DNA of 64,000 bases from Halorubrum salsamenti. GTDB lineage: Archaea > Halobacteriota > Halobacteria > Halobacteriales > Haloferacaceae. This document shows positions 11,392-36,236 of this stretch, in pieces. Under the pieces are notes generated by a model. It worked only from the letters and a program-made list of their open reading frames with translations. It was not told the DNA's origin and ran no database searches. The DNA lies in assembly GCF_007671685.1 (NCBI RefSeq), contig NZ_VCNL01000001.1, forward strand, positions 558,001-622,000. The letters are read 5' to 3'. Position 1 is the first letter of the stretch, and every line of letters begins with the position of its first letter. The position numbers and the translations under genes are program-made.

Positions 11392-11451
11392 CGTTGGTAT
11401 TCCGTGTAACACTACTTGCTGACTTAAAATTGGCGTTCGTCTGTTTACTTT

Positions 11452-18415: not shown

Positions 18416-18896
18416 GATCATGTATTTACACATATATGTTATGTTTCTCTGTATCATGTCTATTTGATTGATCCTCGCAGATACAGTCGAAAGCTGAATG
18501 AATCTCGATACAAACAGACGCCAACCTGTTCTATATTCAAGAGAATTAGCTTTAATGGTTTCTCAGTGGGCAATAAGAGACGATCAATCACCTGTATCTG
18601 CTCTATCTGAATGGCGGCGTTATTGAGACTGTGAGTGAGTTGACTACTATCTGTGCTGCTCTGTTGAATCCGATGACCGCGCGGGGACCACGATCTCTGA
18701 ATGCGCGTTTATCTCGCTCTTTATTGTCAATGAATTGTAACGAAATACCCAGTGATCTGTATCCTCTCGCTCTCTGCCAAGATTCCATCTCTGAATTCTC
18801 TCGGCAGCGGTCCTGAACCGAGTAGAGAGTAACCCGATTCCGACGCGTTCTGCGGATTCAACAGAACAATTACGTGAATAATAGATGCGGATCAAG
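18416..18896. other. AT-rich intergenic region without a gene
   Basis: About 480 bases between two minus-strand genes, with many stop codons in all frames. Near 18420-18450 it is A/T-rich enough to hold the CMAH-like gene's promoter. No repeat or RNA gene was recognised. Confidence 0.4.
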
Positions 18897-20246: not shown

Positions 20247-20402
20247 AGTACCATACACTAGATGGATAAACGACGTGCTTAGTTGTGTAGATTTCGCTCC
20301 TTTCCAGCGGTGCTCCTCCAGGGACACCGATCGTAGTGAGTGGAGTTATATGTCGACAGTTTCCAGCTAATCATGCAACACCTACTACGAGCCATCTCAA
20401 CA

Positions 20403-21833
20403 ATGAGAATCGGACAGACCTCTATCATCGTTTTCGTATCGAAATTGCTGAGTTCAGCACTCGGGTTCATCGCGACATTATATTTCGCCCGTGAGCTTGG
20501 TGCAGAGATTCTCGGATACTTCGCAACTACAATTGCTCTTGTTTCCTGGCTAAAACTCACTGGCGATCTCGGAGTCTCTAACGCGGTCAGAAAGCGGATC
20601 AGCGAGGGCGACGACATCTCGGAATACGCCACCGCGGGAACGATTACAATAATCACATTTGCTGTGGTGATTTCCGTAGCGGTGCTTCTCCTCAATGGAC
20701 TCATAGAGTCGTACGTTGGCCGTCCAGTTGCGGTCTTCGTCGTTCTTCTCTTATGTGCTCAGCTGCTAAAGTCAATGATCGTTTCTCTACTGGAAGGTGA
20801 TCAGATGGTTCATATCTCCGGTATTCTTGAGCCACTTCAAACCGGATCGCGGGCTGCTATTCAGATTGGGCTAGTAATTGTCGGCCTCGGACTATCAGGC
20901 ATGTTTATCGGCCAAGCAGCCGGTTGGATACTGGCCAGTGTCGTAGGGATTTTGTATGTTTCTACATCACCCACTCTGCCAAGCCGCTACCATTTCAAAC
21001 GCCTCTATGACTACGCAAAATACTCTTGGCTTGGGGCACTAGAATCTCGATCCTTCCGTAACATGGATATATTGCTCTTGGGAGTATTCACCTCACCGGC
21101 ACTAGTTGGAGTTTATTCAGTCTCTTGGAGTCTAGCAACATTTCTTACAATCTTCGGTGGTGCTGTTCGATCAGCCCTATTCCCCGAGATTAGCCGATCA
21201 GATGCTAAAGGAGATAGGCAGCAAGTTGCAGCATACCTTACTGACGGGCTCTCGTTTGGTGGACTACTCATCATCCCGGGTTTCGTCGGTGCCATAGTTC
21301 TCGGTGACAGAATCCTACAAATTTACGGGCAAGAATTTACGCAGGGTGTCTCAGTCTTCGGATTCTTAGTTCTTGCCTGTCTCCTCCACGGCTATCAACG
21401 CCAACTGCTTAATGGTCTGAGTGCCATCGATCGCCCCGATCTTTCGTTCCGAGTCAATCTCGTATTTATTGTCGCTAATACAATAGGTAATACCATCCTC
21501 ATCGTCTGGATTGGGTGGGTCGGAGCAGCAATTGCCAGTGTCATATCAACTGCACTCGGGGTGGTATTTGGATATCGAACGCTCCAAAGTCAACTCAGCT
21601 TCATCACTCCCTGGAAAGCAATCGGAGAACAAATTTTCGCAGCTGGAGTTATGGGAATTTGTGTGTATTTGCTCCGACTCCTAATCGAGTCCTCGACTAT
21701 CGGCGTACAAAATATTGCGGTAGTTCTGTTCATTATATCAGTTGGTGCCGGGATCTACTTTCTCACTCTGTTCATAATATCGATGAATTTCCGACGGGTT
21801 ATACAGTCGAATCTCCCGTCTCAGCTATCGTAA
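20403..21833 (+). CDS. Wzx/AglR-type polysaccharide flippase
   Basis: A 476-aa polytopic membrane protein with about 12-14 hydrophobic helices and the start MRIGQTSIIVFVSKLLSSAL. It carries the FARELGAEILGYFATTIALV motif typical of lipid-linked oligosaccharide flippases of the MATE/MVF superfamily. It likely moves dolichyl-linked glycan from the cytosolic to the outer face, where AglB would transfer it. An in-frame ATG at 20373 and GTG at 20340 are alternative starts. Codon use is AT-rich like the rest of the island. Confidence 0.82.
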   Translation: MRIGQTSIIVFVSKLLSSALGFIATLYFARELGAEILGYFATTIALVSWLKLTGDLGVSNAVRKRISEGDDISEYATAGTITIITFAVVISVAVLLLNGLIESYVGRPVAVFVVLLLCAQLLKSMIVSLLEGDQMVHISGILEPLQTGSRAAIQIGLVIVGLGLSGMFIGQAAGWILASVVGILYVSTSPTLPSRYHFKRLYDYAKYSWLGALESRSFRNMDILLLGVFTSPALVGVYSVSWSLATFLTIFGGAVRSALFPEISRSDAKGDRQQVAAYLTDGLSFGGLLIIPGFVGAIVLGDRILQIYGQEFTQGVSVFGFLVLACLLHGYQRQLLNGLSAIDRPDLSFRVNLVFIVANTIGNTILIVWIGWVGAAIASVISTALGVVFGYRTLQSQLSFITPWKAIGEQIFAAGVMGICVYLLRLLIESSTIGVQNIAVVLFIISVGAGIYFLTLFIISMNFRRVIQSNLPSQLS

Positions 21834-22523
21834 ATTTCCCCGTGGTAGACGACTCTTCGTCATTCGTCCCGATATCCCAACACAGCGAGCTTTTCCTTCA
21901 TCTTTTCTGTCGCCTCATGGTACGCTTCAGTACTACCATCGTCTGTGACATCCCGCCGGGAACCATTCTTAATCACTCCCCATGGCATTTTGGTCAGTGA
22001 TTCTGTCCGAAGTCCTCGCGGATGCCCATATAATTTGATAGGAATTGGCCAAATCCGATCTCCAAGCATATTCCCGTGGTCGGATGTAATCACTGTCCAG
22101 CCGGAGAGGTCATTCGCTAGTGCTCTAGCTGCTTCAAATCCCCACTCAAGATTGTTCTGGTAGCCGTTCCACGCCTTGTCTCGGGTCACTTCTCCTGCCT
22201 CAAGAGCTTCCCATACGGTGTCTGGACTAGAGTCGTTGTCATGAATTGTGGTTCCTTCCTTGAGCACGTTTTCAGGGTTCCAATCTTGGAACACAAGTTC
22301 GGGTGTTCGTGGGAACGGAATATGTGGCTGAATGAAATGGATGATCAGACGTTTATCTGGATATTCGTCATGAATCTCCCGCGCTGCGTCTGCGACTTCG
22401 GCTGGTGGGACAGTTTGTTGTTCTTTATCGAAGCGATCGCGCCAAAGTTCTTCGAGGTGGTGGAACTGATTTGGAACAACTTTCGAGGTAACCGGGTTCG
22501 CGGTGATATAAACCGTATCACCG

Positions 22524-22531
22524 AACTCCTC
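22524..22531. repeat. IS target-site duplication, left copy
   Basis: AACTCCTC here is repeated at 23223-23230, just past the other end of the element. An 8-bp duplication is the normal size for IS6-family insertion. Confidence 0.92.
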
Positions 22532-23222
22532 GGTCGCGTTAAGTTTGGCGTGAATTGTGGTAGACTGCGAGGGCTTCGAGCCAATTTTGAGCTGTCTCGA
22601 ACGCGACATTGCTGAAACTATTCGCAAACGATGATGTTCGTCGTTCTATTTCCCAAAAGACACGTTCGATAGCATTCCGATTTCCATGTCGAATGACTTG
22701 AAATCGATAGCCGTCTTCAGCGAGGACTGAGCCGAGATAGTCTGCGTCATCGACGAGAAATTCGACGTTGTTGAGCTGATAGCGCCGGTGTAGCTCGGTG
22801 AGAAACCATCGCGTCGTCTGTTTGTTTGCGGTCGGATAGAGACTTACGTGAAGGATCTCGTTCGTCTGTGGATCAACCGCGCCGTACAGCCAGAACTTCT
22901 GGCCGTGGAGGCGGATCATCTTTTCATCAACCGCGAGTTGATCCTCGGAGACGGTCGAGATCGGCTGTAGATCGGCTTTATGAACCCAGTGATGGATAGC
23001 GACGTGACTGCGATCGATCCCAAACCTTTCGAGATGCTTACTTACCTCGCGTAGTGACATACCGGCCAAATGACAGCGGATCCCTACTTCAATCACCCAG
23101 CGCGGCGTTCGATCTCGCTCCACAAACGACAAGTCGATCCAGGCGATACGTTCGCTGAGGCGGTCGAATTCTGTCATAGACACTCAGAACTCGTCCGCCT
23201 CATCCTCTAACTTAACGCGACC
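22532..23222 (-). mobile_element. IS6-family insertion sequence, 691 bp
   Basis: The element is bounded by perfect 14-bp terminal inverted repeats GGTCGCGTTAAGTT (22532-22545) and AACTTAACGCGACC (23209-23222). It is flanked by the 8-bp direct repeat AACTCCTC, carries one transposase gene and interrupts a sulfatase-like gene. Length, terminal repeats and target duplication fit the small IS6 elements of haloarchaea. It appears intact and may still be mobile. Confidence 0.93.
22539..23183 (-). CDS. IS6-family DDE transposase
   Basis: A 214-aa transposase with an N-terminal helix-turn-helix (LAGMSLREVSKHLERFGIDR) and a DDE catalytic core. The Asp in LAVDEKMIRLHG, the Asp in VEFLVDDADYL and the Glu in RNAIERVFWEIERR are the likely catalytic triad. 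The W-L-Y-G-A-V-D-P motif is usual for haloarchaeal IS6 enzymes. The frame is complete, so the copy may be active. An ATG two codons later is an equally possible start. Confidence 0.93.
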   Translation of the reverse strand: MSMTEFDRLSERIAWIDLSFVERDRTPRWVIEVGIRCHLAGMSLREVSKHLERFGIDRSHVAIHHWVHKADLQPISTVSEDQLAVDEKMIRLHGQKFWLYGAVDPQTNEILHVSLYPTANKQTTRWFLTELHRRYQLNNVEFLVDDADYLGSVLAEDGYRFQVIRHGNRNAIERVFWEIERRTSSFANSFSNVAFETAQNWLEALAVYHNSRQT

Positions 23223-23230
23223 AACTCCTC
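23223..23230. repeat. IS target-site duplication, right copy
   Basis: AACTCCTC, identical to 22524-22531 on the other side of the IS element. Confidence 0.92.
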
Positions 23231-23679
23231 ATCGATGAAATTGTTGTAGGTCCATTCGTCGGTCTTACTGCCTCGGCTCCAAACATGCCGATATTCGTCA
23301 AATTGGCCGGTATCAATTGTCTCTTCGAAGAGATCGAGACGACATGCGTCAAGAATGATGAGATTATCCCACTCCTCATCCATGACACGATTCCGATCAG
23401 AGTCTGAGGTAAGTTTCTGATGTACAGGTGCAATGATCCGCGCGGTAATACGATTTCTCCACCACATACTCCGATGATAATTCTCTGCAATCTCAGAAGC
23501 AGCGTAGGATATTTTATCTAGCATCGTCTACTGAAATGTTCTCTCTACCACTCTTATTAGTTCTGCGGGTTCAAATCACGTGTTTCTGTGTTAATGGTAT
23601 TTGAATAAAGATGTGGGATGAGGAAGAGCAATCATCAACTGGTTTATATCAGAAATCGTCGGACTCAACAGTAGTAGCG

Positions 23680-24103: not shown

Positions 24104-25105
24104 TCAGACCTGCTCAGTGTGGACGTATTGTGAGTCTGTGGATATATTCCGATACCGCACCCAACTGTTCTTGATAACTCTCCCAACATACAGCGCCAAA
24201 TTTTGTACTCTTCGAGGCATATATGTTAGCACGATTAGCAACAGAATCATTACGGTAAATCCTAGTTCAATTGCGTTCTTTCCCTCTGTTTGAGCAGCAT
24301 CGTTATCATCATATCTAATATGTTCTAATAATAGACTCATATGTATCTCACGCTTTTGTTGTTCAGTCAACTGTTGATACAACTGATCCAGATCTCCATC
24401 ACGGAATGCAGATCGTTGTTCCTCAGTAACTTCCCCAGTAGCTCGTAACCGGGCAAATTGGCCGTAAAGTAGCACCTCTCGGAGAGCCGAACCATAGATG
24501 CTAGAATCCCGCATCCTGAGTCTGTAGAGTGGCTCGTTGACATTTCCAATAGAATAATTCTCAGCAATCCGTAGCCAAAGGTCATAGTCCTCAGTATATC
24601 GAAAGTCCTCATCGTAACCACCAACACATTCTACAACACGTTTACGTATCAGTACAGAACCGTGAATGAACCGGTTGCCAGCCAGTAACTGGTCGCGAGT
24701 CACGGACTCCAATACGTGACGTTGAGAACGCCGTCCGTCAGCATACTCTAAGATTGCGCCCGTCCCGAGAAGAGCCAGAGACTCGTTCTCTTGTAAAACT
24801 TCGATTTGTCGTTCAAATCGCTTCGGGTGAGATCGATCGTCTGCGTCTTGGCGGGCGATATACACCCCGTTTGCCTCACGAATCCCACGATTCAACGCAG
24901 ATGGGAGTCCAGATTTGTTTCTTTCAATTAGTGTAATATCGAGTCGATCTTCTGAGGTAATAATATCTACTGTACCATCAGTAGATCCATCATCTACGAC
25001 CACCACTTCGAAATCACGAAACGTTTGTTCCGCAAGTCCATCCAACGCATCCTGTATGGCATTCGCTTCATTATAGGTGGGAAGAACGACACTAATCTCT
25101 GGCAT
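24104..25105 (-). CDS. family 2 glycosyltransferase
   Basis: A 333-aa GT-A enzyme. It starts ISVVLPTYNEANAIQDALDG, with VVVVDDGSTDGT, the metal-binding ARQDADDRSHP, and YTEDYDLWLR as the acceptor/base region. One or two membrane segments (IELGFTVMILLLIVLTYM) near residue 290 suggest membrane association. It probably adds a sugar during assembly of the island's lipid-linked glycan; donor unknown. ATG 25105 is chosen because the GT2 fold starts three residues later. It diverges from the phosphatase-like gene at 25178. Confidence 0.85.
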   Translation of the reverse strand: MPEISVVLPTYNEANAIQDALDGLAEQTFRDFEVVVVDDGSTDGTVDIITSEDRLDITLIERNKSGLPSALNRGIREANGVYIARQDADDRSHPKRFERQIEVLQENESLALLGTGAILEYADGRRSQRHVLESVTRDQLLAGNRFIHGSVLIRKRVVECVGGYDEDFRYTEDYDLWLRIAENYSIGNVNEPLYRLRMRDSSIYGSALREVLLYGQFARLRATGEVTEEQRSAFRDGDLDQLYQQLTEQQKREIHMSLLLEHIRYDDNDAAQTEGKNAIELGFTVMILLLIVLTYMPRRVQNLALYVGRVIKNSWVRYRNISTDSQYVHTEQV

Positions 25106-25177
25106 TTTGCAGGGCGTTATACGTCGTATCAACCATGGGGTTATAACTATGAATGTTCTATGAGAGTTCGGCCAAGA

Positions 25178-26089
25178 ATGTCCTTATCTGATTTCGTCGA
25201 TAAATCGCAGGATTGGTACGCTCGAGCTGGACTCAGAGCAGTTCCACAAATTGGGTTGGATCTTGCTCATAGCGCGATCTCACGAGTCACCTCTCCGTTT
25301 ATTTCTGGTGAGTCTGTGTACCAACGAGAGTGGGATATTCTCGTTGTCTTAGACGCTTGTCGAGTCGACATGTACGAAGATGTAGTGGGTGAGTGTGATT
25401 CCGTCTGGTCTGTTGGTGGGGCATCCCCTGAATGGCTCACAAATACGTTTGAGTCGAGAGACAATTCAGATACGGCATATATCACGGGGAACCCATTCTC
25501 TCGAGAATACCATGCTTCCCAGTTTGGCATGCTTGATGAAGTTTGGCAGTATGGGTGGGATGATCAGTTAGGAACAGTCCCTCCAGAACCCATTACGGAC
25601 CGTGGGATTAGCGTGGCTCGAGAGCAGGCGTATGAACGAGTTATCCTTCACTATATGCAGCCACACTATCCGTTTATCGCCGAAGAGGACACTATCGGGT
25701 ATATCGACCGGTCAGCGTTTGGCGGTGTGGGTGAAGACACAAACGAGGATATCTGGACAAGTATTAAGCTAGGTGAAACAACAGATATTGAGAAAATTCG
25801 GAGTGCATATTGGGACAATCTACGGTATGTATTTGACTATGTCGAGTTACTAATGGAAAATGTCGATGGAACAGTTGTGGTCACTGCAGATCACGGAAAC
25901 GCCTTAGGAGAGTTTGGCATTTGGGGTCATCCAGTTGGTACCCCAGTCCCGGAAGTTCGTCGAGTTCCGTGGGACGTTTATTATTGTAATGATTCGAGAG
26001 AGTACTCGCCTAAAGAATGGGACACACGACAATCAACAACTGATGTGAAACAGCGGCTTGCGGACTTAGGCTATGTTAACGAACGGTAA
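25178..26089 (+). CDS. alkaline-phosphatase/sulfatase-like protein
   Basis: A 303-aa protein related to the IS-split gene nearby. It has WDILVVLDACRVDMYEDVVG, TAYITGNPFSREYHASQFG, RVILHYMQPHYPFIAEE and VVTADHGNALGEFGIWGHP. The D-A-C-R and D-H-G-N metal-site motifs place it in the alkaline phosphatase-sulfatase superfamily, in a short haloarchaeal subgroup seen in surface-polysaccharide loci. It may place or remove a sulfate or phosphate ester on the glycan. ATG 25160 is an alternative start. It converges with neuB, 24 bases away. Confidence 0.75.
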   Translation: MSLSDFVDKSQDWYARAGLRAVPQIGLDLAHSAISRVTSPFISGESVYQREWDILVVLDACRVDMYEDVVGECDSVWSVGGASPEWLTNTFESRDNSDTAYITGNPFSREYHASQFGMLDEVWQYGWDDQLGTVPPEPITDRGISVAREQAYERVILHYMQPHYPFIAEEDTIGYIDRSAFGGVGEDTNEDIWTSIKLGETTDIEKIRSAYWDNLRYVFDYVELLMENVDGTVVVTADHGNALGEFGIWGHPVGTPVPEVRRVPWDVYYCNDSREYSPKEWDTRQSTTDVKQRLADLGYVNER

Positions 26090-26113: not shown

Positions 26114-27136
26114 CTATTCGAGATCGGTTCGGTCAATAATGCTATCTGCTTCAATCTGTGTTGTTGTTGTTTTACCAAGGATCTCGAAAAATTCGGATGC
26201 GGGGATTCCGGTACCGGGCCGTTTCGTTGTAATATTGGATTCAGTCAATTCAGCACCCTGAGGAATGACTGTTTTTGAAACAATACTGTGCCTCGCCCAC
26301 TCCGCGATTCCAGCTTCCGTTTCAGTCGGTGGTACACGGTTTCCACGTGTCTCAACGACAACATTGGCATACTCAACAAGCTCACCGAGTTCGTCCGGTT
26401 CGATCGATACCTCCTGATCACCGCCGGGCAAGCGGCGATCAATCGTGAAGTGTTTCTCAATGATATCGGCTCCTTGAGCAAGGGCAACAACTGACGCTTC
26501 AATTCCTTGAGTATGGTCTGAAAAGCCAATTGGCGCGTTCAGAGCATCCTTCATTTCCTGTATCGCTCCCAAATTGACGTTCTCAATAGGGGTAGGATAT
26601 TCGGACACACAATAGAAGAACGCAACGCGGTCGGTGTATTGACTGATGAACTCAGCTGCATCCTCAATTGCAGACATAGAGTGCATGCCAGTCGAGACAA
26701 GGAGTGGCTTTCCGGTTTTCGCCGCAATTTTGAGTATATGGTAGTTTGTTACTTCTCCAGATCCAATTTTGTACGCGGGAGTGTCAATCTCATCAAGAAG
26801 TTTCACAGCCTCCGGCGAGAATGGAGTTGATAAGAAATCAATTCCTTTACTTTGGCAATACTGCTGTAGTGTTCGGTGTTCTTCGATACTCAATGCCTGT
26901 TCAGACATCCGCTCATAGAGATCCTCCATATCGAGACTCTCCATTCCTGGAGCAGACATCTCCGCTTCGGGAATATGGGTTTGGAACTTGATCGCATCTG
27001 CACCTGCTGCTGCTGCCTCTTCAATAAATACCTTCGCGAGGTCTATCCGCCCAAGATAGTTCACTCCCGCCTCTGCGATGATGTACGGGCCAGTTGAGTC
27101 AGCAAAGATACCCTCGATTGAGTTGGTGTCGCTCAT
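26114..27136 (-). CDS. neuB: N-acetylneuraminate synthase family protein (NeuB/LegI)
   Basis: A 340-aa enzyme that condenses phosphoenolpyruvate with ManNAc or a related hexosamine to give a nonulosonic acid. The TIM barrel starts YIIAEAGVNYLGRIDLAKVF. Motifs include AIKFQTHIPEAEMSAPG, FLSTPFSPEAVKLLDEIDTP, YKIGSGEVTNYHILK, IGFSDHTQGIEASVVALAQG and IEKHFTIDRRLPGGDQE. The C-terminal SAF (antifreeze-like) domain holds NITTKRPGTGIPASEFFEIL. Its ATG overlaps the neuA stop (ATGA). Sequence alone does not separate sialic from legionaminic acid synthase. Confidence 0.93.
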   Translation of the reverse strand: MSDTNSIEGIFADSTGPYIIAEAGVNYLGRIDLAKVFIEEAAAAGADAIKFQTHIPEAEMSAPGMESLDMEDLYERMSEQALSIEEHRTLQQYCQSKGIDFLSTPFSPEAVKLLDEIDTPAYKIGSGEVTNYHILKIAAKTGKPLLVSTGMHSMSAIEDAAEFISQYTDRVAFFYCVSEYPTPIENVNLGAIQEMKDALNAPIGFSDHTQGIEASVVALAQGADIIEKHFTIDRRLPGGDQEVSIEPDELGELVEYANVVVETRGNRVPPTETEAGIAEWARHSIVSKTVIPQGAELTESNITTKRPGTGIPASEFFEILGKTTTTQIEADSIIDRTDLE

Positions 27137-27828
27137 TTCGTCTTTTCCTGCTCGTTGAGACGAGGAATAAGTTTCCGTACTAGCCAAAGATCGAAATGAG
27201 TGTCAACGTCAACAGACCGCTTCTCCGGCATAGTATAGAGCACTGTTTTTCCCGCTTGAAGACTCTCCGTAGCTAGAAATGCTGGGCTTGCCGTGATATA
27301 GATGGCCCCATTTTCCACATACTCTGGGGATTTATCCTGTCGGCGCTTCCGGTCATCGTTATAATTTTTTCGAACGGCTCCATCTGGGTGCTTCTCCCAG
27401 CGGTAACTATGATCCTCATAAACGGAGACCAACGAAGTCCCGTTAGACTCTTCGAATGTCATAATCGCGTTCTCGATATCATCCGCTGTTCGAAGTGGTG
27501 AGGTTGGCTGAAGAAGAACAACGTGAGTCCACTTATCGGCAGATTCGTGTTCTAAGGCATGTCTAATGACTGGTTCTGTTGGCGCCTCATCAGTCGCGAG
27601 CTCATCTGGGCGGAGATATGGAACCGTAGCCCCACACTCTACTGCTGTATCAGCGATCTCTTGGCTGTCCGTACTGACGACAACATCGTCAATACTTTCT
27701 GATTGCTGCGCAGCCTCGATTGAATGTGCTATGAGTGGTCTTCCAGCAACATCCACGATGTTTTTATTTTCGATACCCTTTGACCCACCTCTCGCAGGGA
27801 TAAGGGCTACATACGATCTGTCGCACAT
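27133..27828 (-). CDS. neuA: acylneuraminate cytidylyltransferase (CMP-nonulosonate synthase)
   Basis: A 231-aa enzyme that activates the sugar with CTP. The N-terminal signature is LIPARGGSKGIENKNIVDVA, followed by VVVSTDSQEIADTA, VVLLQPTSPLRTADDIENAI, YVENGAIYIT and SVDVDTHFDLWL. The length is that of the short NeuA/LegF class without an extra domain. It sits one base after neuC and overlaps neuB by four bases, so the three are one operon. Its product, a CMP-nonulosonate, is the expected substrate of the CMAH-like protein at 16541 and of a transferase. Confidence 0.93.
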   Translation of the reverse strand: MCDRSYVALIPARGGSKGIENKNIVDVAGRPLIAHSIEAAQQSESIDDVVVSTDSQEIADTAVECGATVPYLRPDELATDEAPTEPVIRHALEHESADKWTHVVLLQPTSPLRTADDIENAIMTFEESNGTSLVSVYEDHSYRWEKHPDGAVRKNYNDDRKRRQDKSPEYVENGAIYITASPAFLATESLQAGKTVLYTMPEKRSVDVDTHFDLWLVRKLIPRLNEQEKTK

Positions 27829-27829
27829 A

Positions 27830-28999
27830 CTATAGATTTAACTGCTCTGGCTTCATTGGCTGTTTCATTGTCAGGTCGGTCTGGCTGATAATTTCCTTCA
27901 TTTTTTCACCTGTATTTCCATTTCCATAGAGGGTTGACCTCTCATATGGACCAACAGAGAGTTGCTGCTCAATACCTTTTTTAATATCCTCTGTATTACA
28001 GTCCACATCGAGGACGTTTGGCCCCCGCTCACGCATCTGTTGGCGGCCGCCAATATTCACTGTCGGCTTCCCTAGATACGAACATTCTCTGATCCCAACA
28101 CTTGAGTTCCCAACCATACATGCTGAATTGCTCACAAGCGTCAGATAATCATCAGGATGCATATTAATGTAGAACCGGACATCGTCTGGAGATCGCTGAT
28201 CTCGGTATTCACGGATCGCCTTCGAAACCTGATTCGTGCCAGCGTCCATGTTTGGCCAAAACCAGAACGCTTGTACATCAAGATCATCCACTGCGTTGAT
28301 TAGCTCCCATGTCCGGTCATATTCGCTCATATACTCTGTTGCGACTGGATGATACTGAACGACGAGATAATCCTCATCTATATCAATCTGGGCTCCGACA
28401 CCTGCGTAGTCTTCCTGTGGATCGTATCGATTGTCATCATTTTGTTCAATATCCTCAACAAGATCGATCGAGGGACAGCCAGTAAGAAACACCCGATCAG
28501 TTTCCTCACCTAACCCCTCAACAACATCTACACTTTTTTCTGTGGATACAAAGTGGTAATCCGCCATCTTCGTCGTCGCGTGGCGCACCTTTTCATCAAT
28601 GGATCCAGTAATTTCTCCACCTTGTGTGTGAATGACCGGGATATTCAGATACGACGCAGCCAGAGTAACAGACATCGTTTCGTACCTATCTGCGATAGTG
28701 ATCACTCCGTCTGGATCAAGTTCATCAAGTACGGAGGTAAATTCGATCATTCCAAGACCAGTTGTTTTCGCAGAGGCGACAGGTGTTCCCCCCTCCAATA
28801 CGTTGTATAGCTCGCGCTCTATCTCGAGCCCGTCTTCACGCAACAACTCAGACAAAGTACCATATTTTCGGATCATAGATGCACCGGCAACGATGATGTC
28901 TAACTGAGTATCTGGGTCACTATCTAGCGCATGGAGAAGCGTGCCTGTGCGGGCGTAATTTCCTCTGCTAGTCAAGCAGATCGCAACGTGTGTCGACAT
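27830..28999 (-). CDS. neuC: UDP-GlcNAc 2-epimerase, hydrolysing (NeuC/LegG family)
   Basis: A 389-aa GT-B-like epimerase. It starts VAICLTSRGNYARTGTLLHA, with the catalytic-site TIADRYETMSVTLAASYLNI, HTQGGEITGSIDEKVRHATT, VFLTGCPSIDLVED and a C-terminal CMVGNSSVGIRECSYLGKPT. The hydrolysing class converts UDP-GlcNAc to ManNAc and UDP, the first committed step of sialic acid synthesis. It is the first gene of the neuC-neuA-neuB operon. UDP-GlcNAc would come from glmS and glmU. A legionaminate-type substrate is possible, but none of the genes needed to make one is in the window. Confidence 0.9.
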   Translation of the reverse strand: MSTHVAICLTSRGNYARTGTLLHALDSDPDTQLDIIVAGASMIRKYGTLSELLREDGLEIERELYNVLEGGTPVASAKTTGLGMIEFTSVLDELDPDGVITIADRYETMSVTLAASYLNIPVIHTQGGEITGSIDEKVRHATTKMADYHFVSTEKSVDVVEGLGEETDRVFLTGCPSIDLVEDIEQNDDNRYDPQEDYAGVGAQIDIDEDYLVVQYHPVATEYMSEYDRTWELINAVDDLDVQAFWFWPNMDAGTNQVSKAIREYRDQRSPDDVRFYINMHPDDYLTLVSNSACMVGNSSVGIRECSYLGKPTVNIGGRQQMRERGPNVLDVDCNTEDIKKGIEQQLSVGPYERSTLYGNGNTGEKMKEIISQTDLTMKQPMKPEQLNL

Positions 29000-29084
29000 A
29001 CCGCTGGACAGCACCGTCATACCTAAATACGCTTCGAACCGTCTAAGCCAACAACACCATTACAATAGACACATTCTTTTTAAA

Positions 29085-30902
29085 ATGAAAATAATTCTAA
29101 CAGATCATTCTGATATTCCATCCAGACAGTTGGTAGGTGCGTCCCGTATTGTCACGTTCAACAATGAAGCGTACAACCAGATCGATACGGGAACAGTGGT
29201 GATGGGCTCGGACTATCAGCCTAATAATATCGCGACAGACGAAGAGTTTGATAAGCTCCGTGAATGGCTTGCCGATCAATTCATTTATGATGGAATTGAC
29301 ATTGGGCCGCTTATCCAAAATACGTTTATTGATCTGTTTGGGTACGAGCTTATCAGGCAAACTAAAACAATTAAAAATATTCTCCAAACGGAGCAACCAA
29401 CAGAGGTAGTAGTTTACTCTAACCCGGTTCCTGTTTATGAATGGATCCCCCTCGGATCCGGGGAAATAATACCCGGTGTCCCTGAAGCCGTAGCTACTGC
29501 TGAAAATATTGAGGTTCAGGAGTACACGAAATCAATAACAGCAAGTCGTATTAAAGATCGAACTTTTAGATCAATTGGTCCGAGTGTTCTTCGACCACTT
29601 GATTGGGGGTCTGAGTTCATCTCACGAATGCGGGGTAACAGGCCATCACACGATTCGGATCTTGTTTTATTCGTGTTTACAAAAAACAATATCAATGTCG
29701 TTGAACCAGTCGTCGACGCGCTTGATGACCGTGTGAACACCACGGTAGTTACACATGCACATGGTTTTACGAATACTGGACAAGATATCTCAACCTCTTT
29801 GTCCAACTTGAATGTGCCAGTTGTCCCGTTAGCGAAGTATAGTTCACTCACATCGTACAAGGAGGAAATTAAAATAGTGAGACAATTGGCGAGGAACCCA
29901 GACTCTGCTCAACCATTTTCTGACCAGAAGCCACACAGTATCAGCGGAGTCAACCTCACACCCGCACTACAATCCCGCGGATGGCTGTATGCTGCCCTTC
30001 AATATCCCAGAGTCGCCCGGTATGTTCATATGATGCAGAATATGCTCAGAGCTGAACAACCACAGTCAGTTCTTCTGAAAAATGACGGACCCCTCCCGAC
30101 ACGAACAGTGGCAACGGCTGCAGAAAATAAAGGCGTTCCGACACTATTGGTCCAACACGGTGTAGATCTCCCGTCTCGGAGATATGTCCCTGTTTCAGAT
30201 CAGATCGCTGTCTGGGGTGAACGGTGGCAAGAAGTGATGGAGAGGAAGGGCGTTGAGCGTGAGCGAATCAAGATTACTGGTGCACCACAATTTGACCATT
30301 TAGCTCGCTATTCTGCGAAAGATCAATCTCAAATCCGTGAGCAACTCTCTGTCTCTATTGACTGTGGAACATTTACTGTGCTTCTCGCTTCCCAACCCTT
30401 TGATGATACGATACGTTCCAATTTAGTCCAAACGGCTATCGGGGCAGTTCGTGACCTACCGAACGTGGAATTACTTCTTCGTCCGCACCCGAGAGAGGAT
30501 ACAGAACTTCACAAAAAAGCAGCTTCGGATATTCCAAATGTCCAAGTCGTTGAGAGTGATGATATTCATGATTTATTGTTTGCATCCGATGTTGTTTTAG
30601 CGCTCCGGTCGACAGTAGTGCTTGAAGCAAGCTTATTGAATCGACCAGTTGTGATTCTTGATGTTTCAGCTGAAAAGCCACCAATCGAAGAGTTTTCGGA
30701 GCAAAATGGATTTACCGAGGTTACGAATCGAGCCGAAGCGCGAGAATGTATTGAAGAAATGAAAGATAGCCCCAAAAGTGTAGCACGTTATACTAACCAA
30801 CAGCCTAGATTTGGGAGAGAATACGCTCTCAACGAAGATGGAGGTGCAGCCGGTCGAGTTGCTAGAATCATACAAAATCTGATTGTATCCAAATCAAACT
30901 AG
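29085..30902 (+). CDS. GT-B glycosyltransferase with HP and ST motifs, candidate sialyl/nonulosonate transferase
   Basis: A 605-aa protein. The C-terminal half carries VPTLLVQHGVDLPSR, IKITGAPQFDHL, LLLRPHPRED (about residues 463-472, the HP motif) and VVLALRSTVVLEASLLNRPV (an ST motif near 507). HP plus SS/ST motifs mark bacterial sialyltransferases (GT38/GT52/GT80/GT97), but CDP-glycerol phosphotransferases and capsule KpsS-like enzymes share similar elements. It diverges from neuC across an 85-base gap, and that placement favours a role in transferring the CMP-activated sugar. The N-terminal half is unrecognised. Confidence 0.65.
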   Translation: MKIILTDHSDIPSRQLVGASRIVTFNNEAYNQIDTGTVVMGSDYQPNNIATDEEFDKLREWLADQFIYDGIDIGPLIQNTFIDLFGYELIRQTKTIKNILQTEQPTEVVVYSNPVPVYEWIPLGSGEIIPGVPEAVATAENIEVQEYTKSITASRIKDRTFRSIGPSVLRPLDWGSEFISRMRGNRPSHDSDLVLFVFTKNNINVVEPVVDALDDRVNTTVVTHAHGFTNTGQDISTSLSNLNVPVVPLAKYSSLTSYKEEIKIVRQLARNPDSAQPFSDQKPHSISGVNLTPALQSRGWLYAALQYPRVARYVHMMQNMLRAEQPQSVLLKNDGPLPTRTVATAAENKGVPTLLVQHGVDLPSRRYVPVSDQIAVWGERWQEVMERKGVERERIKITGAPQFDHLARYSAKDQSQIREQLSVSIDCGTFTVLLASQPFDDTIRSNLVQTAIGAVRDLPNVELLLRPHPREDTELHKKAASDIPNVQVVESDDIHDLLFASDVVLALRSTVVLEASLLNRPVVILDVSAEKPPIEEFSEQNGFTEVTNRAEARECIEEMKDSPKSVARYTNQQPRFGREYALNEDGGAAGRVARIIQNLIVSKSN

Positions 30903-31038: not shown

Positions 31039-31962
31039 TTATGTCGAATAGCGAACGATCCCAAAGATATACCCCAATCCCACAGACGCGGTTAATAAAC
31101 AGAGTACAAAAAATTGTAATAAGCTCACCATTGGGAATGATCCCACGATGTTGCGGAGTCGCCTCGGAGCAGACTCCGTCAAAAGCATCTGAATGAATTC
31201 ATCTTCTTCACCACTCTCGTCGTCGACGAACGACTCCATCGCCCGCTTCGAGTACCCCTGCCAGAACGCGCGGTCGACCAGCCACCGGAACTCCGTCCGG
31301 TACTCGAACACCTTGTGGGCTACCTCGGCCTCCGGGTCGTACCACACTCCCCGCCCATACTCCTCTCGCATCCGTGCGCACAGCTCCGTCTCCCCGCCCT
31401 GCAGATTCGCGTCGCCTTTCCGCCCCCCAATATCGGTATCGAACCCGCCTAACTCCGCGAACACGTCCGCCCGGAACGAGATGTTCGATCCGAACGTGTT
31501 CCGCACCTCGCCCGGCCCGTCGGCGAATCCGCGATGCGTCACGCCGATCAGCCAGTAGAACTCTTCGGGGAGGAACGACGGCTTCCCTGCGACCCACTCG
31601 GGCGTCATCTTCCCGCCGGCCGCGATCGCGTCCTCCTCTTCGTACGCCCGGACCAGCCGTTCGACCCACCCCTCGTCGGCGATCGCGTCGTCGTCGATGA
31701 ACGCGACGACATCGCCAGACGCGATCTCGGCCCCGCGATTCCGACTCTCCAAGAGCCCGACGTTCTCGTCGTTGCACTCGATCACGATATCGTCGCGGTC
31801 GCCGTACTCATCCACGACGCGCTCGTACACCTCGGGCGTCCCGTCGACGATCACGACGAGCTCGACATCGTCGTGCGTCTGCGCGAGGACACTGTCGGCG
31901 GCCTCGCGGAAGTGATCGTACATGTCGAGCGTGTACGTACAGAGGACGACGGAGACCTTCAC
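31039..31962 (-). CDS. AglG-type family 2 glycosyltransferase
   Basis: A 307-aa enzyme with GT2 start KVSVVLCTYTLDMYDHFREA, VVIVDGTPEVYERVVDEYGD, the metal-site VAFIDDDAIADEGWVE, and the C-terminal GEVRNTFGSNISFRADVFAE and GGRKGDANLQGGETELCARM blocks. A membrane helix pair follows (MVSLLQFFVLCLLTASVGLG). This matches haloarchaeal AglG-like transferases, which add glucuronate to dolichyl-phosphate-bound sugar. It diverges from aglB across about 97 bases. The 5' two thirds are high-GC; the C-terminal end is richer in A/T, marking the island's right border. Confidence 0.82.
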   Translation of the reverse strand: MKVSVVLCTYTLDMYDHFREAADSVLAQTHDDVELVVIVDGTPEVYERVVDEYGDRDDIVIECNDENVGLLESRNRGAEIASGDVVAFIDDDAIADEGWVERLVRAYEEEDAIAAGGKMTPEWVAGKPSFLPEEFYWLIGVTHRGFADGPGEVRNTFGSNISFRADVFAELGGFDTDIGGRKGDANLQGGETELCARMREEYGRGVWYDPEAEVAHKVFEYRTEFRWLVDRAFWQGYSKRAMESFVDDESGEEDEFIQMLLTESAPRRLRNIVGSFPMVSLLQFFVLCLLTASVGLGYIFGIVRYST

Positions 31963-32059
31963 GGAGGCATACTCCCCGACCGGAGCGCTTAGACCTTCCG
32001 CCTCCGGTTGCTGGCTTTATCACAAGCCTTATGCGCGTTTTGCCAGTCGTTTTCACGTA

Positions 32060-35000
32060 ATGAGTGACTCGAACGATCCACCGGCGGCGTCGGATCGGTC
32101 CCCCGCTGACCTCCTCGCACGGTGGTACCACGTCCCGGTTCTTCTCGGTGCACTGGCCTTCATGCTGTGGACCCGCCTCCAGTCGTACGGGAACTTCGTC
32201 CAGAACGGCCAGGTGTACTTCCGCGGCAACGACCCGTGGTACCATCTCCGCGAAACGATGTACATCATGGAGAACTACCCGAACCGGATGCCGTTCGACG
32301 TGTGGACCGGGTTCCCGATCGGGAATCAGGCCGGCCAGTTCGGCACCCTCTGGGACCACATCATGGCGGTCGGTATCTGGATCGCCCGCCCGATCATGGG
32401 CGGCGCCGAAGAGGTCATGCTCGTTATGGCGCCCATCGCTGGCGCCCTCGTCGCGATCCCGACCTACTTCATCGCGCGTCGGTTCGTCGACCGTTTCGCG
32501 GCTCTCGGCGCGGTCATCGTGCTCGCGCTCCTCCCGGGGACCTTCTTCAGTTACAGTCTCGTCGGGTTCCCGGACCACAGCGCGGCCGAGGTCCTCTTCC
32601 AGAGTTTCGCCGTCCTCGCGTTCCTCGTCGCCTTCGCGGTCGCCGAGCGTGAGGCACCGGTCTGGGAGCTCGTCGTCGACCGCGACTGGACCGCCCTCAG
32701 GCGTCCCGCTGCGTACGCGGCGGCCGCGGGCGTCGCGCTCGGCCTTTATATATGGACGTGGCAGCCCGGCATTCTGATGGTCGGGTTTACCGGAATCTTC
32801 CTCGCGGTCAAGATCCCCAGCGATGTGTTCCACGGGAAGAGCCCGGAACCCACCGCCTTCGCGGGCGCGGTATCGATGATCGTCGCCGGCCTGATGCAGG
32901 TCATCCCGCTCGACACGTTCTCGTTCGCGGTGAGCGAGTACTCGTTCCTCCAGATCGTCCTCCCGCTCGTCGTCGCGCTCGGCGCGGTCTTCCTCGCGTG
33001 GCTCGCCCGTCAGTGGGAGTCGCGCGACCTCGACGCCACGACGTACCCGCCGGCCGTCGGCGGTCTCATCCTCGCCTCTGCCGGCATCGTCTGGCTCGCG
33101 GTCCCCTCTCTGTGGTCAACGCTCACGGGGAGTCTCCTCAACACCGTCGGCTTCTCGGCCAGCGCCGGCGCTCGCACCATCGGCGAGGCCCAACCCCCCC
33201 TCCAAGACGCCTCCTTCGCCGACTTCGTCCTCTCGCAGTACGGTCTCGCCTTCTTCCTCGCCCTCATAGCCGTCCTCTACATCGTCGCGCGTCCCCTCTA
33301 TCGCTCCGACGACACGAACCACACGCTGTACATCCCGGCCGCACTTGCCGTGGTCGGCTCCGTCTACGCGGTCCCCCAACTGTACGACGCCGTCGGCGGC
33401 GTCGTCGGCGTGAGCTGGCAGGTGATCGGGCTCGCCATCGCCGCGGCCTTGCTCGTCGGCGCGACGTTCCTCGTCGAGTACGACTCGGAGGAGCTCTACT
33501 TCGTCGTGTGGGCGGCGTTCATCGGGAGCGCCGCGTTCACGCAGGTTCGCTTCAACTACTACCTCGCGGTGATCGTCGCGGTCGGCGCGGCGTACTTCGT
33601 CCAGGTGGCGGTCAACTTCCTCCGGCTTCACACGCTCGACGACGCCCGCGACATCGAGGGATGGCAGGTGATGGGGACGCTCGTCCTCGTCGTCGTCCTG
33701 ATCGTCCCGCTGGTCGCGATGGCGACGCCGGTGTGGGCCGCGGGCGCGAACACCGGCCCCGGCAGCGTCACGCAGTGGGACGGAAGCCTCCAGTGGATGA
33801 ACGACGAGACGCCCACGCCGGGCGAACTCGAAGGCGCCGACAACCCCATGGAGCTGTACGGCACCTACGAGCGCCCCGCCGACGGCGACTTCGAGTACCC
33901 GGAGGGCGCCTACGGCGTGCAATCGTGGTGGGACTACGGTCACTGGATTACCACGCGCGCCGAGCGCATCCCGAACGCGAACCCGTTCCAGCAGAACGCG
34001 GGCGCCGCCGCTGACTACCTGCTCGCACCCAGCGAGGAGGCGTCTCGCGAGGTACTCGCCAGCCAGAGCACCGAAGGCGAGAACACTCGCTACGTGATGG
34101 TCGACTGGCAGATGGCCTCGCCGAACTCCAAGTTCGGCGCGCCCGTCACGTTCTACTCGGGCAACGAGACCCGATCGGACTTCAACCGCGTCCTCTACCA
34201 GCAGACGGAGCAGGGCGGGTTCCAGACGGTGATGCAGGTGAACACCCAACGGTATCACGAGAGCCAGATGATCCGCCTGTACGAGCACTACGGCAGCGCG
34301 GTCGACCCCGAGCCGGTCGTCGTCGACTGGGAGACGCAGAGCGCCCAGACCGCGAGCGGCGAGCAGGTGGAGGTCGACACGCTCCCGAGCGATCCGAGGG
34401 CGACGATCCGACAGTTCGACAACGTCTCGGCCGCCCGCGCGTACGTGGAGGAAGACGGGAGCGCCCAGCTCGGCGGGATCGGCAACCTCCCGTCGGAGCG
34501 CGTCGAAGCCTTAGAGCACCACCGGCTGGTCCACGCGTCGCAGTCGCAGGGACAGTCGCCCTCGGCGCGACAGGTGCAGATCCTCCAGCAGCTCGGCGTC
34601 GACGTCCAGAACGTTCTCGGCGAGTCGGTCCTGCAGGCGTTCCAAGACGACTTCGTGAAGACGTTCGAACGCGTGCCGGGCGCGACGATCGAGGGCTCGG
34701 GCGCCGAGCCCGGACAGGAGGTCGAAGCGACCGTCGAACTCGAAAAGCCCACCGGCCAGACGTTCGAGTACACCCAGTACGCCGAGGCGGACGAGAACGG
34801 GAACTTCGAGCTGACGGTCCCGTACTCGACGACGGGCTACGACGAGTTCGGCCCCGACAACGGCTACACGAACACGAGCGTCCGCGCGGCCGGTCCGTAC
34901 AACGTCACCACTGAGGCGACCACCGGCGACGACCGCTACACGACCCAGCGCGTCGGGCAGGTCGCGGTGACCGAGGGGCAAGTCGTCGGCGCGGACGACG

Positions 35001-35194
35001 CGGCGGCGACGGTCGAACTCGAAGAGGAGGTCATCGACTGCCCAAGCGGCGACCCCGAGTGTCCGATCGACCAGAACGACGGCGGGAGCGGTGACGGAAG
35101 CAGTGACGACGGCGGCTCCGGTAACGAGACCGCCTCGCTGGCCGGGGACTCGGCCACCGCCGAGTTGACCGCCCTCGACGGGGCGAGCGCGTAA
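32060..35194 (+). CDS. aglB: AglB oligosaccharyltransferase (STT3 family)
   Basis: A 1044-aa membrane enzyme that transfers a dolichyl-linked glycan to Asn-X-Ser/Thr of S-layer glycoproteins, archaellins and other secreted proteins. About 13 hydrophobic helices follow the start. The first external loop holds the metal-binding GNDPWYHLRETMYIMENYPN; the soluble C-terminal domain begins near WWDYGHWITTRAERIPNANP (the WWDYG motif). The tail is acidic and Ser/Gly-rich. ATG 32060 is chosen; an in-frame extension upstream lies in non-homologous sequence. DUF368 follows after six bases in the same transcription unit. Confidence 0.95.
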   Translation: MSDSNDPPAASDRSPADLLARWYHVPVLLGALAFMLWTRLQSYGNFVQNGQVYFRGNDPWYHLRETMYIMENYPNRMPFDVWTGFPIGNQAGQFGTLWDHIMAVGIWIARPIMGGAEEVMLVMAPIAGALVAIPTYFIARRFVDRFAALGAVIVLALLPGTFFSYSLVGFPDHSAAEVLFQSFAVLAFLVAFAVAEREAPVWELVVDRDWTALRRPAAYAAAAGVALGLYIWTWQPGILMVGFTGIFLAVKIPSDVFHGKSPEPTAFAGAVSMIVAGLMQVIPLDTFSFAVSEYSFLQIVLPLVVALGAVFLAWLARQWESRDLDATTYPPAVGGLILASAGIVWLAVPSLWSTLTGSLLNTVGFSASAGARTIGEAQPPLQDASFADFVLSQYGLAFFLALIAVLYIVARPLYRSDDTNHTLYIPAALAVVGSVYAVPQLYDAVGGVVGVSWQVIGLAIAAALLVGATFLVEYDSEELYFVVWAAFIGSAAFTQVRFNYYLAVIVAVGAAYFVQVAVNFLRLHTLDDARDIEGWQVMGTLVLVVVLIVPLVAMATPVWAAGANTGPGSVTQWDGSLQWMNDETPTPGELEGADNPMELYGTYERPADGDFEYPEGAYGVQSWWDYGHWITTRAERIPNANPFQQNAGAAADYLLAPSEEASREVLASQSTEGENTRYVMVDWQMASPNSKFGAPVTFYSGNETRSDFNRVLYQQTEQGGFQTVMQVNTQRYHESQMIRLYEHYGSAVDPEPVVVDWETQSAQTASGEQVEVDTLPSDPRATIRQFDNVSAARAYVEEDGSAQLGGIGNLPSERVEALEHHRLVHASQSQGQSPSARQVQILQQLGVDVQNVLGESVLQAFQDDFVKTFERVPGATIEGSGAEPGQEVEATVELEKPTGQTFEYTQYAEADENGNFELTVPYSTTGYDEFGPDNGYTNTSVRAAGPYNVTTEATTGDDRYTTQRVGQVAVTEGQVVGADDAAATVELEEEVIDCPSGDPECPIDQNDGGSGDGSSDDGGSGNETASLAGDSATAELTALDGASA

Positions 35195-35200
35195 CTCGCC

Positions 35201-36145
35201 ATGGTCGGCCTCCGGGACTGGGCGACGCTGTACCTGAAGGGCGTCGCGATGGGTAGCGCGGACGCGGTCCCCGGCGTCTCCGGCGGCACCATCGCGCTTA
35301 TCGTCGGCATCTACGAGCGGCTGATCGCGGCGGTCACCGCGATCGATCCCGCGCGGCTCCGACGGCTACTCGCGGGCGTGCGTCCCGCGAACATCCCGGA
35401 CGCGCGCGCCGCGTTCCACGAGATCGACGGCGCCTTCCTGTTCGTACTCGGCGCGGGGATCGGAACGGCCGTGATCGTCGTGTTGAGCGGCGTCAACTAC
35501 CTCTTAGCGACCCGTCCGGTCGCGACCTACGGGTTCTTCTTCGGGCTGATCGCGGCGAGCGCGGCTGTGTTGCTCGGCGGGGTCGCGCTCGATACGCCGC
35601 GTCGGAAGGCGGCGGCCGTCGCCGGCTTCCTCCTCGCGTTTCTCGCGTCGGGATTCGCTTCGACCGGCCTCGGCAGTTCGCTGCCGGTCGTCTTCGTCGC
35701 CGGGGCGGTCGCGGTCAGCGCGATGGTGCTGCCGGGGATCTCCGGGTCGCTGCTGCTCGTCGTGCTCGGCCAGTACGAGTACATGTCGGGGACCGTGAGC
35801 CGGGCGGTCGACGGGCTCGTCGCGGTCGCGCGCGGGAACGGGAGCGACGCGCTCGTCGCAACGCTTCCGCCGGTCGCGACGTTCCTCGTCGGCGGCGTCG
35901 TCGGCCTGTTCACGATCGCCCACACGGTTCGATACGCGCTCGCCCGCGCCCGGGCCGCGACGCTGGCGTTTCTCGTGAGTCTCGTCGTGGGCGCGCTTCG
36001 GGCGCCCCTCGCCGAGGTCTCCATCCGGTTGGCGGAGAGCGGCGAGTCGTGGCGGGCCGCCGCGCCGCGGTTCGCGCTGGCGGCGGTCGCCGGCGCGGCG
36101 TTCGTGCTCGTGTTGGACCGGTACTCCGCGGCGATCGAGTACTGA
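35201..36145 (+). CDS. DUF368 membrane protein, candidate polyprenyl-phosphate transporter
   Basis: A 314-aa polytopic protein with the DUF368 signature GVAMGSADAVPGVSGGTIAL near the start and VAVSAMVLPGISGSLLLVVL in the second half, two inverted repeats of V-P-G-V-S-G-G/S. Bacterial DUF368 proteins (PopT) recycle undecaprenyl phosphate across the membrane. Here it starts six bases after aglB, so it likely returns dolichyl phosphate released by AglB to the cytosolic face. The transport direction and lipid are inferred. Confidence 0.85.
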   Translation: MVGLRDWATLYLKGVAMGSADAVPGVSGGTIALIVGIYERLIAAVTAIDPARLRRLLAGVRPANIPDARAAFHEIDGAFLFVLGAGIGTAVIVVLSGVNYLLATRPVATYGFFFGLIAASAAVLLGGVALDTPRRKAAAVAGFLLAFLASGFASTGLGSSLPVVFVAGAVAVSAMVLPGISGSLLLVVLGQYEYMSGTVSRAVDGLVAVARGNGSDALVATLPPVATFLVGGVVGLFTIAHTVRYALARARAATLAFLVSLVVGALRAPLAEVSIRLAESGESWRAAAPRFALAAVAGAAFVLVLDRYSAAIEY

Positions 36146-36236
36146 TCGCGGTCGCCGGTCATCGGGTTCCGTTTTGAGGGTGACTGAGTCGTCGCGTACC
36201 GCAGGTTAAAGTCGGCGCTCGCCAAATCCGGGACCG

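Follow-up and report, generated by a model that had tools for sequence, protein, structure and literature searches.

Which nonulosonic acid is made by the neuC-neuA-neuB operon of Halorubrum salsamenti, and is its route the legionaminic acid (Leg) route described in Halorubrum sp. PV6 or a different one? The operon lies in a stretch of 64,000 nucleotides (positions 558,001 to 622,000 of contig NZ_VCNL01000001.1, assembly GCF_007671685.1), referred to here as the window, for which an earlier note had favoured a sialic acid route starting from UDP-GlcNAc (uridine diphosphate-N-acetylglucosamine), unlike that of PV6. Gene content, trees and topology tests support that view, and the operon probably specifies de novo synthesis of sialic acid as in Neisseria and animals, leading to CMP-Neu5Ac (cytidine monophosphate-N-acetylneuraminic acid), in a haloarchaeon. 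In this route, whose substrate specificities are all predicted from homology, NeuC would hydrolyse and epimerise UDP-GlcNAc to N-acetylmannosamine (ManNAc), NeuB would join ManNAc and phosphoenolpyruvate to give Neu5Ac and NeuA would convert Neu5Ac to CMP-Neu5Ac.

The operon and the search for Leg precursor genes

The three genes form a compact operon, as the earlier note had described, with one base between neuC and neuA and a four-base overlap (ATGA) between neuA and neuB. An in-frame ATG at 29020 is an alternative start for neuC. The hydrolysing 2-epimerase, the synthase and the CMP-transferase are all encoded and intact. Pfam assigns NeuC to Epimerase_2, NeuA to CTP_transf_3 (92 bits) and NeuB to the NeuB family (257 bits) with an additional SAF domain. 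NeuC scores 338 bits with TIGR03568 (cut-off 235.9), carries the motif GGEITGSIDEKVRHA and has no LegG-type insertion; its best relative in the PDB is human GNE (4zht, 204 bits), with 5zlr, a ‘GDP/UDP-diNAcBac 2-epimerase’, at 182 bits. The best relative of NeuB is Neisseria meningitidis SiaC (204 bits, PseI reaching 155), and its score with the PseI model TIGR03586 is 249 bits (cut-off 340). NeuA is closest in the PDB to the CMP-Neu5Ac synthetases 6ifd and 1eyr and scores 158 bits, below cut-off, with the PseF model. Identity to the corresponding enzymes of a congener is 88% for NeuB, 81% for NeuA and 94% for NeuC, and the ratio of nonsynonymous to synonymous substitution rates (dN/dS) is 0.026–0.078 for the three genes, or 0.03–0.11 when the divergently transcribed glycosyltransferase (GT) gene described below is counted with them; all four genes are under purifying selection. 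Because the enzymes are 81–94% identical in the congener with dN/dS of 0.03–0.08, the operon is not a chance arrangement.

No DegT aminotransferase, Leg/Pse-type 4,6-dehydratase (Pse, pseudaminic acid) or NeuD is present among the annotated genes of the island in which the operon lies, as had been read from the letters alone. The short-chain dehydrogenase/reductase (SDR) genes at 13184–16330 are UDP-sulfoquinovose-synthase-like and GalE/RmlD-like and reach at most 104 bits with the LegB model (cut-off 475). The absence of a complete leg set extends to the whole genome (3.67 Mb, 99.96% complete), which holds a single copy of NeuB: the best match to the DegT aminotransferase family (PF01041) was partial, at 55 bits, a LegC search at 1e-20 returned nothing, and the best scores with the LegB and NeuD models were 205 bits (cut-off 475) and 52 bits (cut-off 160.8). 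Each of ten genomes compared that carry another type of NeuB (Leg type in nine) encodes a LegC-family protein, the best ones scoring 260–356 bits. Little weight can be placed on the miss with the LegB model, which gives a dehydratase from a leg locus just 63 bits. As regards the Pse route, the locus has NeuC rather than being of the PseG type; no genome-wide PseG search was made.

Neighbourhoods, trees and motifs of haloarchaeal NeuB

NeuB was found in 75 of 391 sampled Halobacteria, and the neighbourhoods of 40 haloarchaeal NeuB loci, compared together with the window, could be sorted into three main sets. Group A, in which neuC, neuA and neuB occur and the aminotransferase/dehydratase pair is missing, comprises 10 genomes, including that of H. 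salsamenti, from seven genera; an eleventh genome from an eighth genus (G408) was found later. The compact neuC-neuA-neuB order is kept in eight of the ten (window, L080, L081, L083–L086 and L088) and in G408, two loci (L082 and L087) being rearranged. In group B, NeuB and NeuC occur with a LegC-type aminotransferase, a dehydratase and a NeuD/formyltransferase. A member of group B from the same genus as the window, G013, has the genes for aminotransferase, dehydratase, NeuA, NeuC, formyltransferase, NeuD, a deacetylase-like protein and NeuB in the order of PV6 genes 1046–1053. In group C, PseG is present and NeuC absent.

In the trees group A formed a single clade apart from the proteins of Leg and Pse contexts, with support of 100/99 for NeuB and 100/100 for NeuC, and the NeuB of the window fell outside the Pse clade. 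Trees joining group A with haloarchaeal LegI (NeuB, P = 0.00265) or LegG (NeuC, P = 0.018) were rejected by the approximately unbiased (AU) test, so that grouping with the haloarchaeal Leg enzymes, the result that would have spoken for the PV6 route, was not seen. Group A NeuB falls beside N. meningitidis SiaC and the NeuBs of Alistipes and Sinorhizobium (94/64), and group A NeuC joins Rhizobium NeuC (98/93) and next human GNE (81/70). All ten group A NeuBs have QTH[IL]..xE[MI], as does SiaC, and the remaining haloarchaeal NeuBs have QTF or QTY where the pattern could be located; GGE[ILV]TGSID is present in nine of the ten group A NeuCs (the match in the tenth fell at a different site), near to the equivalent GGEVSGTID of human GNE, and the leg NeuCs have GGD...GA.ID.

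A CMAH-like gene, a NeuB-linked glycosyltransferase-like family and the island

The earlier note mentioned neither of two further genes in the window that raise the finding beyond ordinary annotation. One encodes a protein with an N-terminal Rieske domain (ligands C59, H61, C76 and H79) followed by a metallo-beta-lactamase fold (H191xH193xDH196), which is the domain order of CMAH (CMP-Neu5Ac hydroxylase), the animal enzyme of 590 aa in which a Rieske domain precedes a beta-lactamase-like domain (PMC8227644). Its C terminus carries a redox-disulfide-like extension (prismane_assoc, 33 bits, below cut-off). It is plausibly a CMP-Neu5Ac hydroxylase, converting the N-acetyl to an N-glycolyl group and so CMP-Neu5Ac to CMP-Neu5Gc (Neu5Gc, N-glycolylneuraminic acid). 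CMAH genes have been mentioned for algae and bacteria, with archaea not mentioned (PMC8227644), natural synthesis of Neu5Gc by prokaryotes has been denied (PMC7845648; PMC6481270), and our search of the literature, partial in coverage, found no description of an archaeal CMAH.

Four CMAH-like loci were found (window, G127, G408 and G180), all in genomes that have NeuB. The G127 and G408 copies are full-length and each 54% identical to the window protein, and that of G180 is broken by stops. A group A neuC-neuA-neuB operon is found 7.2 kb from the G408 gene, which has glmU-glmS on the opposite side, and the window has the same relative order (neuCAB, CMAH-like, glmU-glmS) over a longer distance; linkage to neu is kept in a second genus at 51–58% protein identity. 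Judged by co-occurrence alone, and with the H. salsamenti genome left out, the association of the CMAH-like gene with NeuB reaches P = 0.036 across the 391 sampled genomes. A phylum-wide sample had no CMAH-like gene besides that of the window, searches of plasmids and phages gave no full-length Rieske-first relative, scans of viral contigs gave no usable homologues, and a contig scan with the CMAH-like alignment returned other Rieske domains alone, the patterns falling in the Rieske motif. Alignment to an unverified mouse CMAH sequence was colinear at 134 bits and is a lead only. A Tsukamurella protein that we take to be NamH-like has the reverse order, beta-lactamase first and Rieske last; L071, considered as a NamH reference, was rejected as a short Rieske protein. 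Haloarchaeal relatives consisting of the beta-lactamase part and lacking the Rieske motif (L010–L036) are common; they are about 450–480 aa long and share about 26% identity with the CMAH-like protein, and two of them lie near sulfatase-like genes. AlphaFold2 single-sequence models of the CMAH-like protein and the GT had a mean pLDDT (predicted local distance difference test) of 32, too low to use.

The other gene is transcribed divergently from neuC and encodes a GT-B-like protein that matches Glyphos_transf (40 bits), Epimerase_2 and LpxB in Pfam and surf_polysacc TIGR04396 (94 bits, below cut-off) in NCBIfam; it matched no sialyltransferase model in either database, and the family profile had no significant match in the PDB. 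A profile (A3) of its family together with families c8 and c45 found 40 of the 391 genomes, every one of them among the 75 with NeuB, and 37 copies lie no more than 14 kb from neuB. When the genomes that supplied profile rows are left out, 29 of 29 are NeuB-positive (hypergeometric P = 5.6e-26, a value overstated by shared ancestry, although 23 genera are involved). QHG, HP and T..E are invariant across the family, positions which we take to resemble those of CMP-sugar-using GT-B enzymes. The protein is a candidate nonulosonate transferase, and would move the CMP-activated sugar onto a surface glycan built by the glycosyltransferases of the island. Family c8 (L103:285-1691 and relatives, about 470 aa) has no Pfam or NCBIfam match and is found repeatedly next to NeuB genes of Neu, Leg and Pse type.

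The operon is part of an AT-rich region (16–32 kb, 46–54% G+C, surroundings mostly 62–74%) that ends at aglB and contains two family 2 glycosyltransferase genes, a MATE/Wzx flippase gene, sulfatase-like genes and an IS6 transposase gene (Table 1). After flipping by the MATE-type flippase the glycan would probably enter AglB-dependent N-glycosylation. Apart from the transposase region, the congener G011 shares synteny with the window from aglB through to the flippase gene. The sulfatase-like family of 25025–26089 (c5) recurs in 15 of the compared nonulosonate loci. On the minus strand at 21860–23524 an IS6-family transposase reading frame (22539–23183) lies between two pieces (21860–22627 and 23207–23524) similar to that protein, as if split by insertion. 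The earlier note had also placed glmU and glmS upstream in the window, correctly, and they could supply UDP-GlcNAc; as evidence for a Neu5Ac route they were rejected, since other nonulosonate loci carry them too. Elsewhere in the window, in the plus-strand region 13184–16330 adjoining the CMAH-like gene, two SDR epimerase genes come after the UDP-sulfoquinovose-synthase-like gene (NF041015, 330 bits, under the cut-off of 575); just past aglB (35201–37421, plus) are genes for proteins resembling an undecaprenyl-phosphate translocase and a capsule-synthesis protein (PGA_cap); and an Orc1/Cdc6-type replication protein gene (10195–11412, minus) suggests a possible origin nearby.

Table 1. Positions in the window of the operon, the associated genes and the surrounding island
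Feature	Position	Strand	Remarks
glmU-like (UDP-GlcNAc supply)	4899-6074	plus	TIGR03992 (Arch_glmU) 271 bits, just under cut-off 292
glmS, glucosamine-6-phosphate synthase	6077-7951	plus	TIGR01135 714 bits
CMAH-like protein	16541-18457	minus	Pfam Rieske + Lactamase_B; true start probably 18406
MATE/Wzx-type polysaccharide flippase	20340-21833	plus	Pfam Polysacc_synt_3, MurJ; homologues adjoin other neuCAB operons
Family 2 glycosyltransferase	24104-25132	minus	PF00535
Sulfatase/alkaline-phosphatase-like	25025-26089	plus	PF00884 22 bits, below cut-off
neuB	27136-26114	minus	340 aa; predicted N-acetylneuraminate synthase with SAF domain, QTHIPEAEMS motif
neuA	27828-27133	minus	231 aa; predicted CMP-nonulosonate (CMP-sialate) cytidylyltransferase
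neuC	28999-27830	minus	389 aa; predicted hydrolysing UDP-GlcNAc 2-epimerase, GNE-type
GT-B-like protein, candidate CMP-nonulosonate transferase	29085-30902	plus	divergent from neuC; H468-P469, T510/E514 invariant
Family 2 glycosyltransferase	31039-31962	minus	PF00535
AglB oligosaccharyltransferase, island edge	31922-35194	plus	STT3, AglB_core, AglB_L1

Competing readings and known systems

A number of points weigh against the route to CMP-Neu5Ac or its extension to Neu5Gc. The joins of group A to N. meningitidis NeuB and to GNE have moderate support and long branches. The NeuB of the window scores 334 bits with TIGR03569, ahead of the PseI model (249) but under the cut-off of 399.65. A LegI-context protein passes this NCBIfam NeuB model (417 bits), which is therefore no test of product: it labels that protein ‘N-acetylneuraminate synthase’ yet misses the NeuB of the window. 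In Escherichia coli K1 the NeuB, a Neu5Ac maker, has QTF and resembles the Leg type, so that the QTH motif marks a subtype and not a product (it was rejected as a sole marker of Neu5Ac synthases), and the NeuC of the same Neu5Ac route branches with 5zlr and a LegG; judged from these sequences, motif and clade do not correspond one-to-one with product. PV6 LegI and LegF take ManNAc and Neu5Ac in vitro (PMC6137143), and such assays by themselves therefore discriminate poorly. The association of the CMAH-like gene with neu is partial, because the copies in G127 and G180 lie away from neuB (the NeuBs there being Leg and Pse type), and in G011, the closest relative bearing the operon, no CMAH-like gene was found.

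It is very improbable that the operon belongs to a Leg (or bacillosamine-based) route with its precursor genes elsewhere in the genome. Homology of NeuC and NeuB does not by itself settle the substrate, names assigned automatically cannot be relied on, a LegC-family aminotransferase lies outside the operon in seven of the ten group A genomes, and the LegB model detects haloarchaeal dehydratases so poorly that its miss counts little; but the remaining three (H. salsamenti, G148 and G075) have no LegC-family protein, and NeuB and NeuC are shut out of the haloarchaeal Leg clades by the AU tests. Some other nonulosonate made from a different hexose or UDP-HexNAc (UDP-N-acetylhexosamine), for example Kdn (ketodeoxynononic acid) or an unknown ManNAc derivative, gains something from the distance of the group A clade from assayed enzymes and is unlikely, a GNE-type hydrolysing UDP-GlcNAc 2-epimerase being required for ManNAc and not for Kdn, and no further hexose-modifying enzyme recurring beside group A operons. 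A decaying or silent import without a product would fit the AT-rich island, the transposase, the split sulfatase-like pieces and the patchy distribution. We consider it hardly credible, as neuC, neuA, neuB and the GT gene are intact with dN/dS of 0.03–0.11 and the same gene order is found again in several genera.

The reading of the CMAH-like protein is less settled than that of the operon. There is a substantial chance, though clearly below even, that a Neu5Ac-like sugar is made and that the substrate of this protein is another sugar nucleotide (for NamH it is UDP-MurNAc, UDP-N-acetylmuramic acid) or its function a different one, with no Neu5Gc formed. The unlinked copies in G127 and G180 and the apparent absence from G011 fit this, and metal-ligand positions past HxHxDH appear to differ from CMAH in the alignment with the unverified mouse sequence. 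On the other side, haloarchaea are not known to make muramic acid, the Rieske-first order is that of CMAH whereas the NamH-like Tsukamurella protein is reversed, and two of the four copies have a group A neu operon 7–8 kb away. CMAH has itself been described as a distant homologue of N-glycolylmuramate genes (PMC6481270), and conversion of N-acetyl to N-glycolyl with O2 is the chemistry of NamH, the mycobacterial UDP-MurNAc hydroxylase (PMC10234563). The full route, in which CMP-Neu5Ac from NeuC, NeuA and NeuB would be hydroxylated to CMP-Neu5Gc by an archaeal CMAH homologue and attached by an undescribed nonulosonate-transferase family, we place just short of an even chance. The final sugar is likely Neu5Ac and plausibly Neu5Gc.

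If the Neu5Ac route is real, a second, Neu5Ac-type route (10 of 391 sampled Halobacteria in seven genera, plus G408) alters what may be expected of archaeal N-glycans. Kandiba and Eichler are said to have made a genome-based prediction of archaeal Neu5Ac routes in 2013. Such routes had also been predicted earlier from genomes (Lewis et al. 2009, as far as it is cited in PMC8053191), and the operon alone is therefore a member of a predicted kind. With the CMAH-like gene in the island, the statement that prokaryotes do not produce Neu5Gc can be put to a direct test, and the gene bears on the origin of the animal enzyme; if its protein acts as proposed, synthesis of an animal-type sialic acid may extend to archaea.

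In the literature searched, enzyme data for an archaeal nonulosonate pathway were found for the PV6 route alone. The legionaminic locus of PV6 (LegB/C/F/G/H/I; PMC6137143) resembles the present one in having homologous NeuB, NeuC and NeuA in a haloarchaeal glycosylation region and in glmS (HrrPV6_1015 is GlmS; PMC6137143). PV6-type loci differ in carrying aminotransferase, dehydratase, NeuD and formyltransferase, their haloarchaeal proteins form another clade, and the PV6 gene order is found in the congener G013 and not in H. salsamenti. The PV6 authors noted that no Leg transferase had been identified in any organism with Leg in protein glycosylation, and the NeuB-restricted GT family is a candidate for it. 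PV6 ‘LegH’ (HrrPV6_1014) is annotated as a nucleotidyltransferase adjoining glmS (PMC6137143, Table 1), resembles the glmU-glmS pair here and may be GlmU, with the NeuD homologue (1051) as the acetyltransferase. The operon shares with N. meningitidis SiaC and human GNE the NeuB motif QTHIxExEMS, the NeuC motif GGExxGxID without insertion and the lack of a bacillosamine branch, but is distant from both (204 bits each), and NeuC of the archaeon stands alone, lacking the kinase domain. With E. coli K1, whose product is Neu5Ac, it shares adjacent neuB, neuA and neuC genes, and it differs in gene order, NeuB (QTF in K1) and NeuC subtype and in having no neuD above cut-off. NamH and the CMAH-like protein would share the chemistry described above, and their modules are in opposite order if the Tsukamurella protein is representative. 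The CMAH-like protein differs from animal CMAH in being archaeal and in its C-terminal extension, and resembles it in its N-terminal Rieske and beta-lactamase-like domains (PMC8227644) and in length; its gene shares the island with CMP-sialate genes.

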